A DNA stretch of 64,000 nucleotides from Desulfotignum sp. (GTDB lineage: Bacteria; Desulfobacterota; Desulfobacteria; Desulfobacterales; Desulfobacteraceae). The DNA lies in assembly GCA_011390635.1 (NCBI GenBank), contig JAABSA010000005.1, forward strand, positions 62,001 to 126,000, in the 5' to 3' direction. The notes beneath the pieces were generated by a model that saw only the letters and a program-made list of their open reading frames with translations, had not been told where the DNA came from and made no database searches. Shown one piece after another: positions 6,126-27,673 of this stretch (positions are counted from its first letter, which is position 1; every line of letters starts with the position of its first letter). Position numbers and translations under genes: made by a program.

Positions 6126-6239
6126 CTTGAACTGTGACAAGACCAGGATATCCATGCCATAAACCATATGAGAGGGATTGACATGAGCCCGTTAAAGCAA
6201 CTGAATGACCGAATCATCAGCCGTGTAAACGTAAATCTC
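6101..6239 (+). repeat. intact copy of the 139-bp duplication
   Basis: This is the functional partner of the decayed copy at 2415-2553. It contains leader sequence, the SD-like GAGAGGG, the ATG at 6183 and the first 19 codons of the beta-helix gene. Confidence 0.8.
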
Positions 6240-7595
6240 GACGAATTTGAATTTGATACAGGACATTTTGTAATAAATGCCCTGGACCATGAAAAAATGC
6301 TCAAATTCTACGCATTTTACGGCATTACCTCCCACCACCCAATCTATTTTCATTTTAAGAATTCCAATATCGCCGGCAGTTATTTTCTGGGCAAATGCTT
6401 TGTGGGAAGATCTGCCATTTATAAGAGCGATATCCGGGGGGATGAACTCAAAAGAAAAGGGGATAATATCCGCTGTGCCAAGGATATCCCCCTGGTTGAG
6501 GATGAAATGATCTCCATCAGGGACAGCCTGTTATACAAAACCCTGGTACACAGCAATTCCCACAATCCGGAAAGCCCGGAGGAATTCGGGATCCGCAACA
6601 CCATTTCATGCCATTATGTCAATATCCACGGATCCACCCTGGAAGGGTGTTTTTTAGGTCCTTTTGCCACGGTTGACCTGATGAACCTGCATTCGTGCAT
6701 TGTGGGAGAATTTTCCTATGTCCAGGTGGGGGAATTATTCCACCGGAAAATCGATCCAGGCACCATCTGGCTGAAAAGTCCGAATTTTGAATTCAAATTC
6801 AAGTTTGATAAAGAGATTCTGGATTATTTTGTGGGGGTCAATGACGAACACCAGCCCCGGGGCATTATGTATGATTTTGTCAAGGAACGGGAAGCGGCAT
6901 ATGAAAGACTGTTTGATGTCATGAATCTGGAACCTATTGATGCGCCTGCCAGTTCAGCGGTTAACCGGTATGCTGTGATTCAGGGGGACACCGTCATCGG
7001 AAAAAATGTCCTGGTGGCACAGCGGGCGTTTCTGGAAAACGCCGTGATGGGAGATGGATCCAATGCCCAGGAAAACACCTATATCATCAACTCAAATCTG
7101 GCCGGACTGTGTATCACCGCCCACGGCGGCAAAATCATCCATGCAGATATCGGCCGGCAGACCTTTGTGGGCTTTAATGCATTTTTATACGGTACAAAAC
7201 AAGCCCGCATTGATATCGGTGATGGCTGTGTGGTAATGCCCCATACGATCATAGCGCCCCGGGAGCCTGTCCAGATTCCTGCTGAACACCTGGTATGGGG
7301 ACTGATCCGGTCCCAGGCAGATGTAAAAAACCATACCATTGCACTGGATGATCTGGCAGATGTGCGGGACAGCCTGAAAATCGGTAAAATGACATTTTCC
7401 GGCAAAGGATCGGTTTTCATTGAAACCTTTAAAAAACGGCTGCACAATATTCTTCTGCTCAACGGCGCGCTTTACAAAAATGGAGAAAAAAGGGGGCATG
7501 CCCAGGATGACCAGCATATTTCCTTTAATATCATCCAGCCCTACCGCACCGGTTCCCGCAGAGGTCTGTATCCATCCATCCGCATCAAGCCGTAA
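6183..7595 (+). CDS. left-handed beta-helix (hexapeptide-repeat) protein, transferase-like
   Basis: About 470 residues. Two stretches (roughly residues 75-210 and 255-375) have the short isoleucine/valine-spaced turns of hexapeptide repeats (for example YAVIQGDTVIGKNVLVAQRAFLENAVMGD), which suggests a trimeric left-handed beta-helix like sugar-nucleotide acyl- or nucleotidyltransferases. I see no nucleotidyltransferase domain and cannot name a substrate. The ATG at 6183 was preferred over 6168 because GAGAGGG sits just before it and because the duplicated pseudo-copy has lost exactly this ATG. It is probably cytoplasmic, as no signal peptide or membrane segment is visible. Confidence 0.75.
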   Translation: MSPLKQLNDRIISRVNVNLDEFEFDTGHFVINALDHEKMLKFYAFYGITSHHPIYFHFKNSNIAGSYFLGKCFVGRSAIYKSDIRGDELKRKGDNIRCAKDIPLVEDEMISIRDSLLYKTLVHSNSHNPESPEEFGIRNTISCHYVNIHGSTLEGCFLGPFATVDLMNLHSCIVGEFSYVQVGELFHRKIDPGTIWLKSPNFEFKFKFDKEILDYFVGVNDEHQPRGIMYDFVKEREAAYERLFDVMNLEPIDAPASSAVNRYAVIQGDTVIGKNVLVAQRAFLENAVMGDGSNAQENTYIINSNLAGLCITAHGGKIIHADIGRQTFVGFNAFLYGTKQARIDIGDGCVVMPHTIIAPREPVQIPAEHLVWGLIRSQADVKNHTIALDDLADVRDSLKIGKMTFSGKGSVFIETFKKRLHNILLLNGALYKNGEKRGHAQDDQHISFNIIQPYRTGSRRGLYPSIRIKP

Positions 7596-8230: not shown

Positions 8231-9661
8231 TTACTGCGGTGTTTTTTCGCGTTTTTCAACGGTGTATGCCACCTGCACTTTGATGTTTTTCTGGTCCGCA
8301 AGCCTTATGCTGGCCGGATTCAAAGCAATATCAGCAGTCAGGGTGCCTGATGCATGGATGTTTTCAAGCAAAAGGGGTTCCGTAAACAGGGTATGCATCT
8401 GCCTGAGAACCTGGTTCGGCCCGATGACACCGACCTTTTGTGGAACTGCGGAAGCATGTGTCATAATGAGATCCCGGGCAAGTTCTCCCACCCAGACAGG
8501 CTGAACGGCAAGTTCTTTTTGCATTGAGACATCAACCAGAACCTCAAGCTGGGCTGGTTCTATATTCTTGATAGATATGCCCGGTGGCAGCGTAATGGTA
8601 TTGCGGCTCACAGCCAGGGTGTTGATACCTGGTACGGCATTGGCCAGATTCAGCTTGACACTGATGCGGTCAGGCCCCAGGGATCTGATCAGGGGCCGGG
8701 AACCGCTGAGCAAAAGCCTGATGCTGCTTGCTGAAGAAGAAAAGATTTCCATTTTCTGACCAGGGTTGATGAATTCAACGGGGATATCATGGGTTGCAAG
8801 GGTTTCCATTCCCCTGGAAAAGCTCAGCCACAGCCCGGTTACACAGACCAGACATATGGCAGCTGCAACCGCAAGTTCACGGGTATGTTTTTTAAATCCT
8901 CTGGCAGGGGTATCATCTCCGGCATGCCTGACCAGCAGTTTTTCAAGCACACTGGCATCATTTATATCATAGATCTGGCTGTTCCGTACCAGGGTGATTT
9001 TACCCCGTTCCTCTGAAACAACTATCACCAGGGCATCTGTCTGCTCCGCAAGTCCAAGGGCTGCCCTGTGGCGGGTACCGAAATGGGAAGGGAGATCTGT
9101 GCGCTTTGAAAGCGGAAGAATCACACCGACATCAGTGATCCTGTCTCCCTGGATAACGGCTGCACCGTCATGGACCGGATTGTCATCCCAGAAAATACTC
9201 AACAGCATCTCTTTGGAAAGTTTCCCCTGCCATGGGATGCCCTCTTGAACAACACTTTCCAGACCCTTGTTCAAGGGCAGCACAATCAATGCCCCGGTTT
9301 TCTTTCTTGCCATTTCATACACGCTTTCAACAATGATACCCATGGGGGTTTTGAGCTGATACCGTGGAATACCCCAGAAAAACGATTTCAGATCTTTGGT
9401 TTGAAGCACGGAGGAGATTTCATTGCGGAACACAATAATAATCACCAGGGCTGCAACGGCAATGACACCCTGCAGCACCCAGGTGGTGATGATCAATCCC
9501 ATGGAAACAGCCACCTGCCTGAGAACCCCCAGCACAACCATGGCGAAAAGAACCCGCAGCACATTGGTGCCGCGAAAAAGCACATAAAGACGGAACAGAA
9601 TATAGGTGTTAAGTGCTATATCCAGAACATTCTGCCACCCGATACCCAATAACTGTCCCAT
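8231..9661 (-). CDS. membrane diadenylate cyclase fused to YbbR-like repeats (CdaA-CdaR fusion)
   Basis: 476 residues. Three N-terminal membrane segments (about 10-30, 37-57, 60-80) are followed by a DAC domain (about 95-240) with both catalytic motifs, DGA (NPVHDGAAV) and RHR (GTRHRAALG). Such domains condense two ATP to c-di-AMP. A further membrane segment (about 262-283) leads into extracytoplasmic YbbR-like repeats to the C-terminus. In Firmicutes the cyclase CdaA and its membrane regulator CdaR (YbbR) are separate neighbouring genes. Here both are in one chain, so the regulator is covalently attached. It ends next to the small acidic genes on the other strand and is followed upstream by a DUF2914 gene. 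Confidence 0.9.
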   Translation of the reverse strand: MGQLLGIGWQNVLDIALNTYILFRLYVLFRGTNVLRVLFAMVVLGVLRQVAVSMGLIITTWVLQGVIAVAALVIIIVFRNEISSVLQTKDLKSFFWGIPRYQLKTPMGIIVESVYEMARKKTGALIVLPLNKGLESVVQEGIPWQGKLSKEMLLSIFWDDNPVHDGAAVIQGDRITDVGVILPLSKRTDLPSHFGTRHRAALGLAEQTDALVIVVSEERGKITLVRNSQIYDINDASVLEKLLVRHAGDDTPARGFKKHTRELAVAAAICLVCVTGLWLSFSRGMETLATHDIPVEFINPGQKMEIFSSSASSIRLLLSGSRPLIRSLGPDRISVKLNLANAVPGINTLAVSRNTITLPPGISIKNIEPAQLEVLVDVSMQKELAVQPVWVGELARDLIMTHASAVPQKVGVIGPNQVLRQMHTLFTEPLLLENIHASGTLTADIALNPASIRLADQKNIKVQVAYTVEKREKTPQ

Positions 9662-9667
9662 GGCTGA

Positions 9668-10096
9668 TCAGTCGGAAATACTGAATCTAAGGGTTTTCAT
9701 AATCATTCCCTGACTGTCAACGATCTCAACCCGCCACGCCCCTTTATCCACATCCCGCAGCTGCATGCTGCTGAACGAAGACCATTTGGGAGGGTTAAGC
9801 GCCAGTTTTGCATTGGATATCAGACGATCCTGCCGGTACCACCGGTGATAAATATCGTTTTTTTCAGGCACCGGATCAAAAGCGGTAAAGCAGTAGACCC
9901 TGCCCAGAGAAATGGAAAACACGACTGCCTGGTTGACAGGTTTGAAGTTTTCAATGGTCTCGCACATTACCGCCAGGACCAGCACAGGCGGTGCTGCCGA
10001 CTTAGGCTGGTCCTGGGCAAGGGCATAGGAACCGGCAGCTGCCGCAGCACACAACAACAGCAAAACAGCAGCAGCCCTTATGAAAGTTGTATTCAT
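9668..10096 (-). CDS. exported DUF2914-type protein
   Basis: 142 residues from the ATG at 10096. That start places a signal peptide (leucine/alanine-rich, predicted cleavage near YALA-QDQ) at the N-terminus; a longer frame from 10201 would bury it. The mature part has the DUF2914 pattern (GRVYCFTAFD, HRWYRQDRLI, KGAWRVEIVD), a periplasmic beta-rich domain of unknown role often seen beside cytochrome or membrane genes. It lies 6 bp upstream of the diadenylate cyclase, so the two are probably co-transcribed. Confidence 0.75.
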   Translation of the reverse strand: MNTTFIRAAAVLLLLCAAAAAGSYALAQDQPKSAAPPVLVLAVMCETIENFKPVNQAVVFSISLGRVYCFTAFDPVPEKNDIYHRWYRQDRLISNAKLALNPPKWSSFSSMQLRDVDKGAWRVEIVDSQGMIMKTLRFSISD

Positions 10097-10173
10097 GGGC
10101 TTGATGATACCTGGGAATCCATCTGTTTTCAAGTCTGAAACCTGGACAGACAGCAATTTTTTTCCATTGATTC

Positions 10174-10196: not shown

Positions 10197-10203
10197 AACA
10201 AAT

Positions 10204-25864: not shown

Positions 25865-27673
25865 TTACACACCATAGAACAGATAAATCATCAACAGTTC
25901 CACAGTGAGGAAAATAAATGTCATGACAATGCCTGCTTTTGCATAGTCCACGGTTCGGTAGCCTCCGGGCCGCATCACCAGGGCGTTCACCTGGTGTGTG
26001 GGCAGAATAAAGCTGTTGGAAGCGGAAATGCCGACAACCAGTGCCGCCATTCTGGGATCCGCACCGGCCATCATCGCCATGTTCATGCAAAGAGGGACCA
26101 GAAGAACCGTTGCACCGACATTGGAAATGACCAGCGTAAAAAAAGTGGTCATGATACCGATCACCGCCAGCAGAACAATCGGTACCGGTGTTCCCACAAA
26201 ACCCAGGACCCCCTGGGCGATAAAGGCAGCAGTGCCGCTTTTTTCAAATGCAATACCCAGCGGAATCAGCCCGGCAAGAAGAAACACCGTCATCCAGTCC
26301 ACGGCGCCGTATGCCTCATCGATTGTCAGAACCCCTGTGATGATCATGCCCAGGGCCCCTGACATCAATGCCACGGCCAGGGCGGTATCAAAGAAAATGA
26401 CCTGAAAAAGAGCAATGGCAAGCCAGAAAACTGCAAATACGGCTTTCTGGGGACGTAGAATTTCTCCTTCAAGCGGGGATGCAAAAACCAGTGACCGTGG
26501 TTTTGGTTTATTGTTCAGAATATGAAATTTGTCCCATGGTCCCTGGAGAAGCAGGGTATCTCCCTTGCTCAGCGGAATATAGGTCAGGCCGCTGTAAAAT
26601 TTTTTATTGTCTTTGAACAGAACCAGTGGATTGAGTTGATAATGCTCTTTAAAACTCACTTCATTCAATGTCTTGCCGATCAAATCCGATCTGGGGGAAA
26701 CAACCGCTTCCGCTACCCCTGCATTTGTATTGGCGAGGGTGTCTGCAAAGGTTTCCAGGGTGTCTTTTATCTGCCAGCCGTATTCTTCTGCCAGTTTTTC
26801 AATATTTTCCCATTTGCCGGCAACGGCAACATCACAGTTGGCAGAAACGGTTTCGTGGCTCCGGGGAACATGATTGACCGTCTTGACCGAAGGATAACTG
26901 ATCCCGATAACCGTGACCAGAAATTTCGCCCTGACCGTAAGTTCCTCCAGCGTTCCCGTGACACCGGTCTCCGGCACATGCAGTTCCACAATACTGTTGA
27001 CCCCCTGGTATTCTCTGGTCAGCATTTCAGATGCCCCTTTACTGAACTTTCCGGTCTGGGCAGGCAGAACAAATTTACCGAAAACCACAAAATACAGCAG
27101 CGCGGCGGCAACCAGTGCCAGTCCGATGGGCGTCTGGGTAAAAAGCCCGAAAGGTGCCAGTTTTTCTCCGCCGACCACCATCAGGTCATTCAACAAAATG
27201 GTGGGACTTGCGCCGACCAGGGTGATGGTACCACCGATAATGGCACAGAACGCCATGGGCATCAGCACTCTGGATGTGGGGATTCCCATGCGTTTGGATA
27301 TTCTCTGGGTGACGGGCAGAAACAATGCCGCAGCCCCGATATTCTGCATCAAACTGGAAATCACGGCGACGGAACCGGCAATAAACAGAATGATCCTGTT
27401 TTCACTTTTGCCGGCCAGGGCCATGATCGGCTTTGCCACCTTGTTCATCACCCCGGTTTTATCAAGGCCTGCGCCGATGATGATAACAGCGATAATGGAA
27501 CAGACCGCGTTGCTGGAAAGACCTGAAAAGGCTTCCTTTGGCGTAACCAGGCCGATAAGGGGAAGCAGCACCATCATCATGATTCCCACAACATCCACTC
27601 TGACCCATTCAAAAACAAATAAAAAAATAACAAAAACAAGGACTGTCATTGTCAATATCATATCAGGTGTCAT
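25865..27673 (-). CDS. SLC13-family permease with RCK_C-type cytoplasmic domains
   Basis: 602 residues. Two sets of membrane segments (roughly 5-200 and 405-600) carry the DASS/ArsB-NhaD-type signatures (SSLMQNIGAAALFLPV, and IGISASNSFILPTHQVNALV near the end). Between them lies a cytoplasmic part (about 210-390) with TrkA/RCK_C-like repeats that often sense ligands. SLC13 members move di- or tricarboxylates or sulfate with sodium or protons. In a sulfate reducer a sulfate role is possible but not shown by sequence. It sits in the middle of a set of receiver and UspA genes, which suggests its expression or activity is regulated by them. Confidence 0.9.
   Translation of the reverse strand: MTPDMILTMTVLVFVIFLFVFEWVRVDVVGIMMMVLLPLIGLVTPKEAFSGLSSNAVCSIIAVIIIGAGLDKTGVMNKVAKPIMALAGKSENRIILFIAGSVAVISSLMQNIGAAALFLPVTQRISKRMGIPTSRVLMPMAFCAIIGGTITLVGASPTILLNDLMVVGGEKLAPFGLFTQTPIGLALVAAALLYFVVFGKFVLPAQTGKFSKGASEMLTREYQGVNSIVELHVPETGVTGTLEELTVRAKFLVTVIGISYPSVKTVNHVPRSHETVSANCDVAVAGKWENIEKLAEEYGWQIKDTLETFADTLANTNAGVAEAVVSPRSDLIGKTLNEVSFKEHYQLNPLVLFKDNKKFYSGLTYIPLSKGDTLLLQGPWDKFHILNNKPKPRSLVFASPLEGEILRPQKAVFAVFWLAIALFQVIFFDTALAVALMSGALGMIITGVLTIDEAYGAVDWMTVFLLAGLIPLGIAFEKSGTAAFIAQGVLGFVGTPVPIVLLAVIGIMTTFFTLVISNVGATVLLVPLCMNMAMMAGADPRMAALVVGISASNSFILPTHQVNALVMRPGGYRTVDYAKAGIVMTFIFLTVELLMIYLFYGV

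Follow-up and report, generated by a model that had tools for sequence, protein, structure and literature searches.

A DAC-YbbR fusion gene and its upstream DUF2914 neighbour in Desulfotignum and its order

In Firmicutes, c-di-AMP synthesis by CdaA is subject to control by CdaR, reported as activator and as repressor, and by GlmM, reported as inhibitor; how CdaR exerts its control is called unclear (PMC8573169). In Staphylococcus, the c-di-AMP level rose when ybbR was disrupted by an insertion (PMC11520302). This is opposite to the Gram-negative Chlamydia, where YbbR is described as needed for full c-di-AMP synthesis and dacA and ybbR as a bicistronic operon (PMC12422730). For Leptospira, a cdaA-cdaR operon without glmM is described (PMC12974146).

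Our literature searches, which included sulfate reducers, retrieved no paper describing a DAC-YbbR fusion, and we think an earlier description likely: as a domain layout, the combination has probably been catalogued already. To judge from its title and subject, the review 'All DACs in a row' (Galperin 2023, J Bacteriol) would be a likely place for it, as would that of He et al. 2020 (NAR). A figure of frequent DAC layouts forms part of PMC7288161.

Here we analyse such a fusion in a stretch of 64,000 nucleotides from a Desulfotignum sp. genome (in the following, the window). Our preferred reading, to which we assign a probability of about 0.6, is that of a single-chain transmembrane diadenylate cyclase which would be controlled in cis by its periplasmic YbbR part and would have a secreted DUF2914 protein as partner, the former place of cdaA being emptied.

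Domain layout of the fused gene

A preliminary description of this DNA had placed a fusion of CdaA and CdaR functions at 8231-9661. These coordinates are right; the strand, which had been left unstated, is the minus strand. On the plus strand the region holds stops, and the open frame runs from 9661 to 8231 on the minus strand. The gene and its parts are:

8231..9661, minus strand: fused diadenylate cyclase gene, 476 aa, ATG at 9661, with CdaA-like N-terminus, DAC domain, membrane helix and two YbbR domains
9407..9661, minus strand: N-terminal membrane region, aa 1-85, CdaA_N-like, sub-threshold in Pfam
8975..9328, minus strand: DAC catalytic domain, aa 112-229 (Pfam DAC, E 1.3e-38, 131.7 bits)
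8819..8875, minus strand: membrane helix (TM4) between DAC and YbbR, aa 263-281, from a Kyte-Doolittle scan
8270..8812, minus strand: two YbbR domains, about aa 284-375 and 376-464 (Pfam, two stretches)

The succession of DAC domain, membrane segment and YbbR repeats in one chain, as it had been claimed, is borne out by the Pfam matches, the hydrophobic stretch at 263-281 and the uninterrupted frame of 476 aa. The best stretch for Pfam YbbR (PF07949) is 390-464, with E 1.8e-8 and 35 bits at a cut-off of 22.3. CdaA_N scores 16.4 bits on the window protein, under the Pfam cut-off of 23.8, and lies above this cut-off in other fused proteins, for example L119, L144 and L151. The NCBIfam equivalog model for CdaA, TIGR00159, gives 176.4 bits and stays under its curated cut-off of 188.8. 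Diadenylate cyclase/CdaA entries are the top sequence matches of the fusion among solved structures (9g69, E 6e-36). At the N-terminus, hydrophobic segments are found near aa 27-52 and 60-78; three helices appear in the low-confidence structure model alone. Among 50 fused proteins of one class (class A), the mean column agreement over aa 1-85 amounts to 0.74, and each of the 50 has a hydrophobic segment behind the DAC domain.

All DAC motifs, named here as in PMC7288161, are present in the fusion: GALI at 123-126, DGA at 165-167, GTRHR at 195-199 and SEE at 216-218. Intact DGA and RHR had been noted before, and GALI and SEE are found in addition. Within class A, DGA is retained in all 50 proteins and GALI, G[TS]RHR and SEE in 49 each. 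By its sequence, the fusion would be a diadenylate cyclase.

An AlphaFold model of the whole fusion, built from five sequences, reached a pLDDT of 44. It is fair to good at about 379-473, which is the second YbbR domain (pLDDT 70-89 by block), and without confidence for the first. The second YbbR domain matches the solved YbbR structures 4qdy (Z 9.0, rmsd 4.9, 98 aligned) and 2kxy (Z 8.8, rmsd 4.0, 97 aligned). For residues 123-249, a low-confidence part of the model, the solved CdaA 8c4o was the best match (Z 8.9, rmsd 4.1, 99 aligned).

The same genome codes for a second DAC protein of 480 aa (L002, 1408-2847; C16:33859) with DACND and DACNH sensor domains. Its DAC domain retains DGA, RHR is changed to RYN and SEE is replaced, and because of these two replacements it is possibly not a cyclase. 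Many genomes of the order have weak DAC matches of 480-500 aa that resemble this protein. Four DAC-YbbR fusions (L135, L144, L146, L150) are without the RHR motif, DGA being retained. In the window, a 475-aa hexapeptide-repeat protein with Hexapep_loop is encoded at 6168-7595 (+), for which no NCBIfam family scored above cut-off.

As an addition to the preliminary description, a PgpH-type protein was found in 135 of 146 genomes of the order, including the window's own (on C8), so the pathway there is probably more than a bare synthase. As evidence of coupling, PgpH is of little use, since it is so widespread and the 135 include genomes without DAC match. The window's genome also has 19 TrkA_C matches, a type of domain which can bind c-di-AMP in other proteins; the PgpH-type protein and the TrkA_C proteins could represent c-di-AMP turnover and targets. 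A CitMHS-type transporter with a TrkA_C domain lies in the window at 25865-27673 (-). Under stricter filters and with scoring limited to 30 candidates in each genome, the c-di-AMP riboswitch RF00379 was detected in three of 96 order genomes and not in the window's own. The three (G030, G090 and G018; L178-L180) all have a fusion-sized DAC frame; none of them has a PgpH match, which is lacking in 11 of the 146 genomes, and G030 and G090 belong to the same genus.

Distribution of the fusion and the former place of cdaA

The window's genome is a draft of 98 contigs, which might speak for an error of assembly or gene calling that joined cdaA and cdaR, as had been considered in the preliminary description. 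This is ruled out by frames of equal size in many other draft genomes, in single-contig genomes and on named MAG contigs. Three named Desulfotignum MAGs contain orthologues of 476-478 aa and one Desulfobacteraceae MAG an orthologue of 419 aa with an in-frame deletion, all with 73-79% identity to the window protein, and the single-contig genomes G129, G440 and G480 have frames of 478-485 aa. Moreover, the window's genome has a separate ybbR at another locus. We therefore give this explanation practically no weight. The suspected Gram-negative sulfate-reducer affinity of the DNA fits with Desulfotignum and Desulfobacteraceae MAGs as closest named relatives. In one close relative (L006:4001-5257), an in-frame deletion of 57 residues has removed over half of the first YbbR domain.

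A DAC match was obtained in 107 of the 146 sampled genomes of the window's order. Counting was done on the 120 listed rows above 100 bits, from 99 genomes; rows below 100 bits, which are other DAC types, were left out. The frames are of at least 441 aa in 94 rows, of 350-440 aa in 20 and shorter in six, and for 114 of the 120 rows the open frame has 389 aa or more. YbbR was found in the same frame as DAC in at least 72 of the 120 rows, a lower bound with one row entered per gene. Among the order matches listed, no unfused cdaA was situated within 5 kb of a ybbR. The fusion is thus what sampled genomes of this order usually have, and not a peculiarity of one organism as it had first appeared.

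A search for the same fusion across Desulfobacterota, which had been suggested earlier, showed an order that is mostly fused and best phylum matches that are mostly separate genes, with some other members of the phylum fused as well. In the class sample (147 genomes, 111 with DAC), the listed rows above 100 bits lie in frames of at least 368 aa. The phylum sample comprises 297 genomes, of which 267 have DAC; its best matches are mostly in frames of about 250-325 aa, and 30 loci taken from these have at most 34 residues beyond the aligned DAC region. The other, fused members of the phylum are L148-L151 and L154, with YbbR matches, and L155, judged by its tail.

In a quick tree of 109 DAC regions, with long branches and a root that is not known, 53 fused rows including the window form one clade (SH-aLRT 99). 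Their tails are mostly of 231-247 residues; the exceptions are L006 (179), L142 (330) and two genes truncated where their contigs end (190). A single state change divides 73 fused from 34 unfused rows on a branch with SH-aLRT 80; L126, with a stop inside the frame, and the fragment L147 stand outside this count and inside the count of 75 fused loci given below. A second type of fusion (class B), of about 390 aa with a tail of about 150 residues, has its own branch. Like the window fusion, it combines CdaA_N, DAC and a post-DAC tail in one chain; it differs in the shorter tail, the separate branch and the upstream DUF2914 gene, which was seen in none of 11 loci, some of them with less than 600 bp of upstream DNA. 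In Pfam, YbbR lies above the cut-off in the class-B tails of L119 and L136, below it in L111, and gave no match in L106.

In other parts of the phylum, the gene order is folP-cdaA-ybbR-glmM: within the 30 best-scoring unfused loci (about 1.5 kb), folP was present in 26, ybbR in 26 and glmM in 24. The separate ybbR of the window's order is situated in folP-ybbR-coaX, with folP in 27, coaX in 23 and DAC in none of 28 loci; like the unfused loci, these are the best-scoring ones (30 loci per search) and not a random draw. Near 75 distinct fused loci (77 rows, as two of the loci are counted double there), with flanks of less than 1.5 to 6 kb, neither folP nor glmM nor coaX was found. In the window's genome, the fusion and the free ybbR occupy two separate loci, the former on C61 and the latter, as folP-ybbR-coaX, on C37. 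The glmM gene is on C17, which agrees with the earlier remark that it is missing next to the fusion.

A simple fusion in place within the ancestral operon is unsupported, because the old place persists as folP-ybbR-coaX and still holds ybbR, and because the fused loci are without folP, glmM and coaX in the flanks covered. By gene order, the simplest account would be a departure of cdaA from the operon, in which ybbR remained, with the fused gene situated elsewhere. One locus, L079, has folP-ybbR-glmM without cdaA and is a possible intermediate between the phylum operon and folP-ybbR-coaX. Our literature searches, sulfate reducers included, found no account of an emptied cdaA place with an orphan ybbR. 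Thirteen sampled genomes (G041, G046, G059, G065, G134 and eight others) have a separate ybbR and no strong listed DAC row, several of them being over 95% complete. Since ybbR occurs in such genomes, YbbR may also act apart from c-di-AMP synthesis.

The DUF2914 gene upstream of the fusion

The preliminary description of the locus missed a conserved gene, probably for a partner protein, which lies directly upstream of the fusion and ends with its stop codon 6 bp from the fusion ATG:

9668..10096, minus strand: DUF2914 gene, 142 aa (PF11141, E 4.2e-19), ATG at 10096
10104..10132, minus strand: weak candidate sigma-70-type promoter of the DUF2914-fusion unit, 10 of 12 consensus bases

PF11141 reaches 68.5 bits on the upstream protein, with a cut-off of 23.6. 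A longer reading from a TTG start at 10201 is an alternative. Between 8000 and 10300, six sigma-70-type promoter sites were counted, as against 2.6 expected in shuffles. Read from the ATG at 10096, the protein begins with a signal-peptide-like N-terminus ending in ALAQ, which would be the cleavage motif, and it would be exported. C45 and C69 are invariant in the five closest orthologues. The structure model is a seven-strand sandwich with pLDDT 66.5 overall; in the domain (59-140), pLDDT is 64-89 by block from residue 61. Its top solved match is 6oe6, an uncharacterised Leptospira protein (Z 10.7, rmsd 2.1, 85 aligned). Many Ig-like chains come next, with Z of about 8-9, and the modelled fold is probably Ig-like. 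Sequence searches of DUF2914 against solved structures gave nothing credible. In the searched literature DUF2914 is mentioned in two papers, by title unrelated to bacterial signalling.

Clustering of the neighbours of 65 DAC loci showed DUF2914 as the same-strand gene at position -1 in 32 of them; the runner-up was seen in 12 of 65 at scattered positions. DUF2914 is the only widely conserved neighbour of the fusion. Sorted by DAC frame size among the listed rows, a same-strand upstream DUF2914 accompanies 79 of the 94 frames of at least 441 aa, one of the 20 of 350-440 aa and none of the six shorter ones, and in 66 of these 80 pairs the distance to DAC falls into one common 350-bp bin. With a model built from the cluster, DUF2914 was detected as the next gene upstream in 43 of the 58 long fused loci and in none of 16 mid-length and 35 short ones. 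The mid-length group is made up of 11 loci of class B, the further fused loci L148, L149, L154 and L155, and one unfused locus with an overlong start (L153). At L114, L117, L127 and L129, an upstream DUF2914 is masked by an overlong start call and was revealed by the domain distances. Within class A, 47 of 50 loci have the gene upstream; the three without it (L020, L102, L107) are all of family f4.

Altogether, 15 of the 94 long DAC rows lack an upstream DUF2914. Outside the main clade these are L012, L015, L021, L135, L144 and L146, out of eight placed in the tree; the two inside the clade come from G003 and G143, of family f4. DUF2914 gave no match in seven of the 87 genomes that have a long DAC frame, so the fusion can dispense with it, and 67 of 147 DUF2914 rows, in 61 genomes, do not lie upstream of a strong DAC. 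Both observations would suit a reading in which the fused cyclase works and the neighbouring DUF2914 gene is merely co-transcribed with it, its product serving some unrelated purpose in the periplasm, with YbbR responding by itself or serving as an anchor only; that DUF2914 binds the fusion is, moreover, something we infer. However, in most of the sampled families the pair keeps a near-fixed spacing whereas its other neighbours vary, and the genome-level co-occurrence of DUF2914 and long DAC frames over 146 genomes, which are related and not independent, is 80/7/21/38 (Fisher p 4e-13). We regard a mere neighbourhood as rather doubtful, though to be reckoned with. No account of a DUF2914-cyclase pairing was found in our literature searches, which covered sulfate reducers as well.

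Proposed mechanism and comparison with known systems

In the single-chain cyclase that we prefer, the N-terminal helices and the cytoplasmic DAC domain would make c-di-AMP from ATP. TM4 would cross the membrane back, so that both YbbR domains come to lie in the periplasm, as a separate CdaR would. This placement is suggested by analogy, because DAC is cytoplasmic in CdaA, the post-DAC segment is present in 50 of 50 class-A proteins, and CdaR/YbbR is anchored by one helix elsewhere. YbbR would act in cis on the cyclase, probably by altering the pairing of DAC domains. DUF2914 and the fusion would be made as a two-gene unit, and the secreted, Ig-like DUF2914 protein would most likely bind either to the YbbR part or to some ligand in the envelope, and relay an envelope cue to YbbR. 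Such a cue could change the packing of YbbR and, via the helix, the pairing of DAC, whichever sign this control may have. The folP-cdaA-ybbR-glmM place would have been emptied of cdaA in the window's order, with an orphan ybbR left. A version that goes further is held more tentatively, at less than even odds: DUF2914 would be a direct periplasmic regulator of the fused cyclase that replaces control by CdaR and GlmM, and the orphan CdaR at folP-ybbR-coaX would have a c-di-AMP-independent task.

The YbbR tail could also be a passive relic, with control exerted via GlmM or by transcription. The deletion in L006 is in line with this, and so is the comparison at the GlmM-docking position, Arg126 of Bacillus CdaA, which corresponds to Lys120 of the window protein in the register of the structural match to 6huw. 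Arginine stands there in 9 of 50 class-A and 8 of 33 unfused proteins (p 0.58), and arginine or lysine in 31 of 50 and 26 of 33 (Fisher p 0.15), the 33 unfused rows including the short L100 and L108, which are not clear CdaA orthologues. A basic residue is thus not significantly rarer in the fused proteins, and the idea that the fused form has lost GlmM docking was dropped. Against a passive tail, seven of its residues are identical in 50 of 50 class-A proteins (W278, P359, G361, P369, Q387, G392 and T427), and the tail length in the main clade is kept within the narrow range given above, bar L006, the two contig-end genes and L142. A relic without function is improbable in our view, and we retain control in cis by YbbR.

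A natural single-chain cyclase sets the stoichiometry of YbbR to DAC at 1:1, shows which parts are sufficient and offers a single protein for structural work. The pairing with DUF2914 provides a clue to the function of a little-mentioned domain family, and a concrete candidate for the envelope input to Gram-negative c-di-AMP signalling. The emptied place of cdaA with its surviving ybbR gives a way to ask if YbbR proteins have a role independent of c-di-AMP.

CdaA (DacA) of Bacillus, Listeria and Staphylococcus resembles the fusion in its membrane region and cytoplasmic DAC domain with GALI, DGA, GxRHR and SEE. However, CdaA ends after DAC, whereas the fusion continues for about 235 residues, which comprise a membrane helix and two YbbR domains, scores below the curated cut-offs for CdaA and is without a following glmM or a separate cdaR. 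With CdaR/YbbR it shares YbbR domains behind one membrane helix, expected to be extracytoplasmic, the second of which matches solved YbbR; in contrast to CdaR, its YbbR part is covalently joined to the enzyme, and a free YbbR exists in the same genome. The dacA-ybbR operon of Chlamydia and the cdaA-cdaR operon of Leptospira are alike in the Gram-negative envelope. There, however, each operon codes for two proteins, whereas the window has one protein with DUF2914 upstream.
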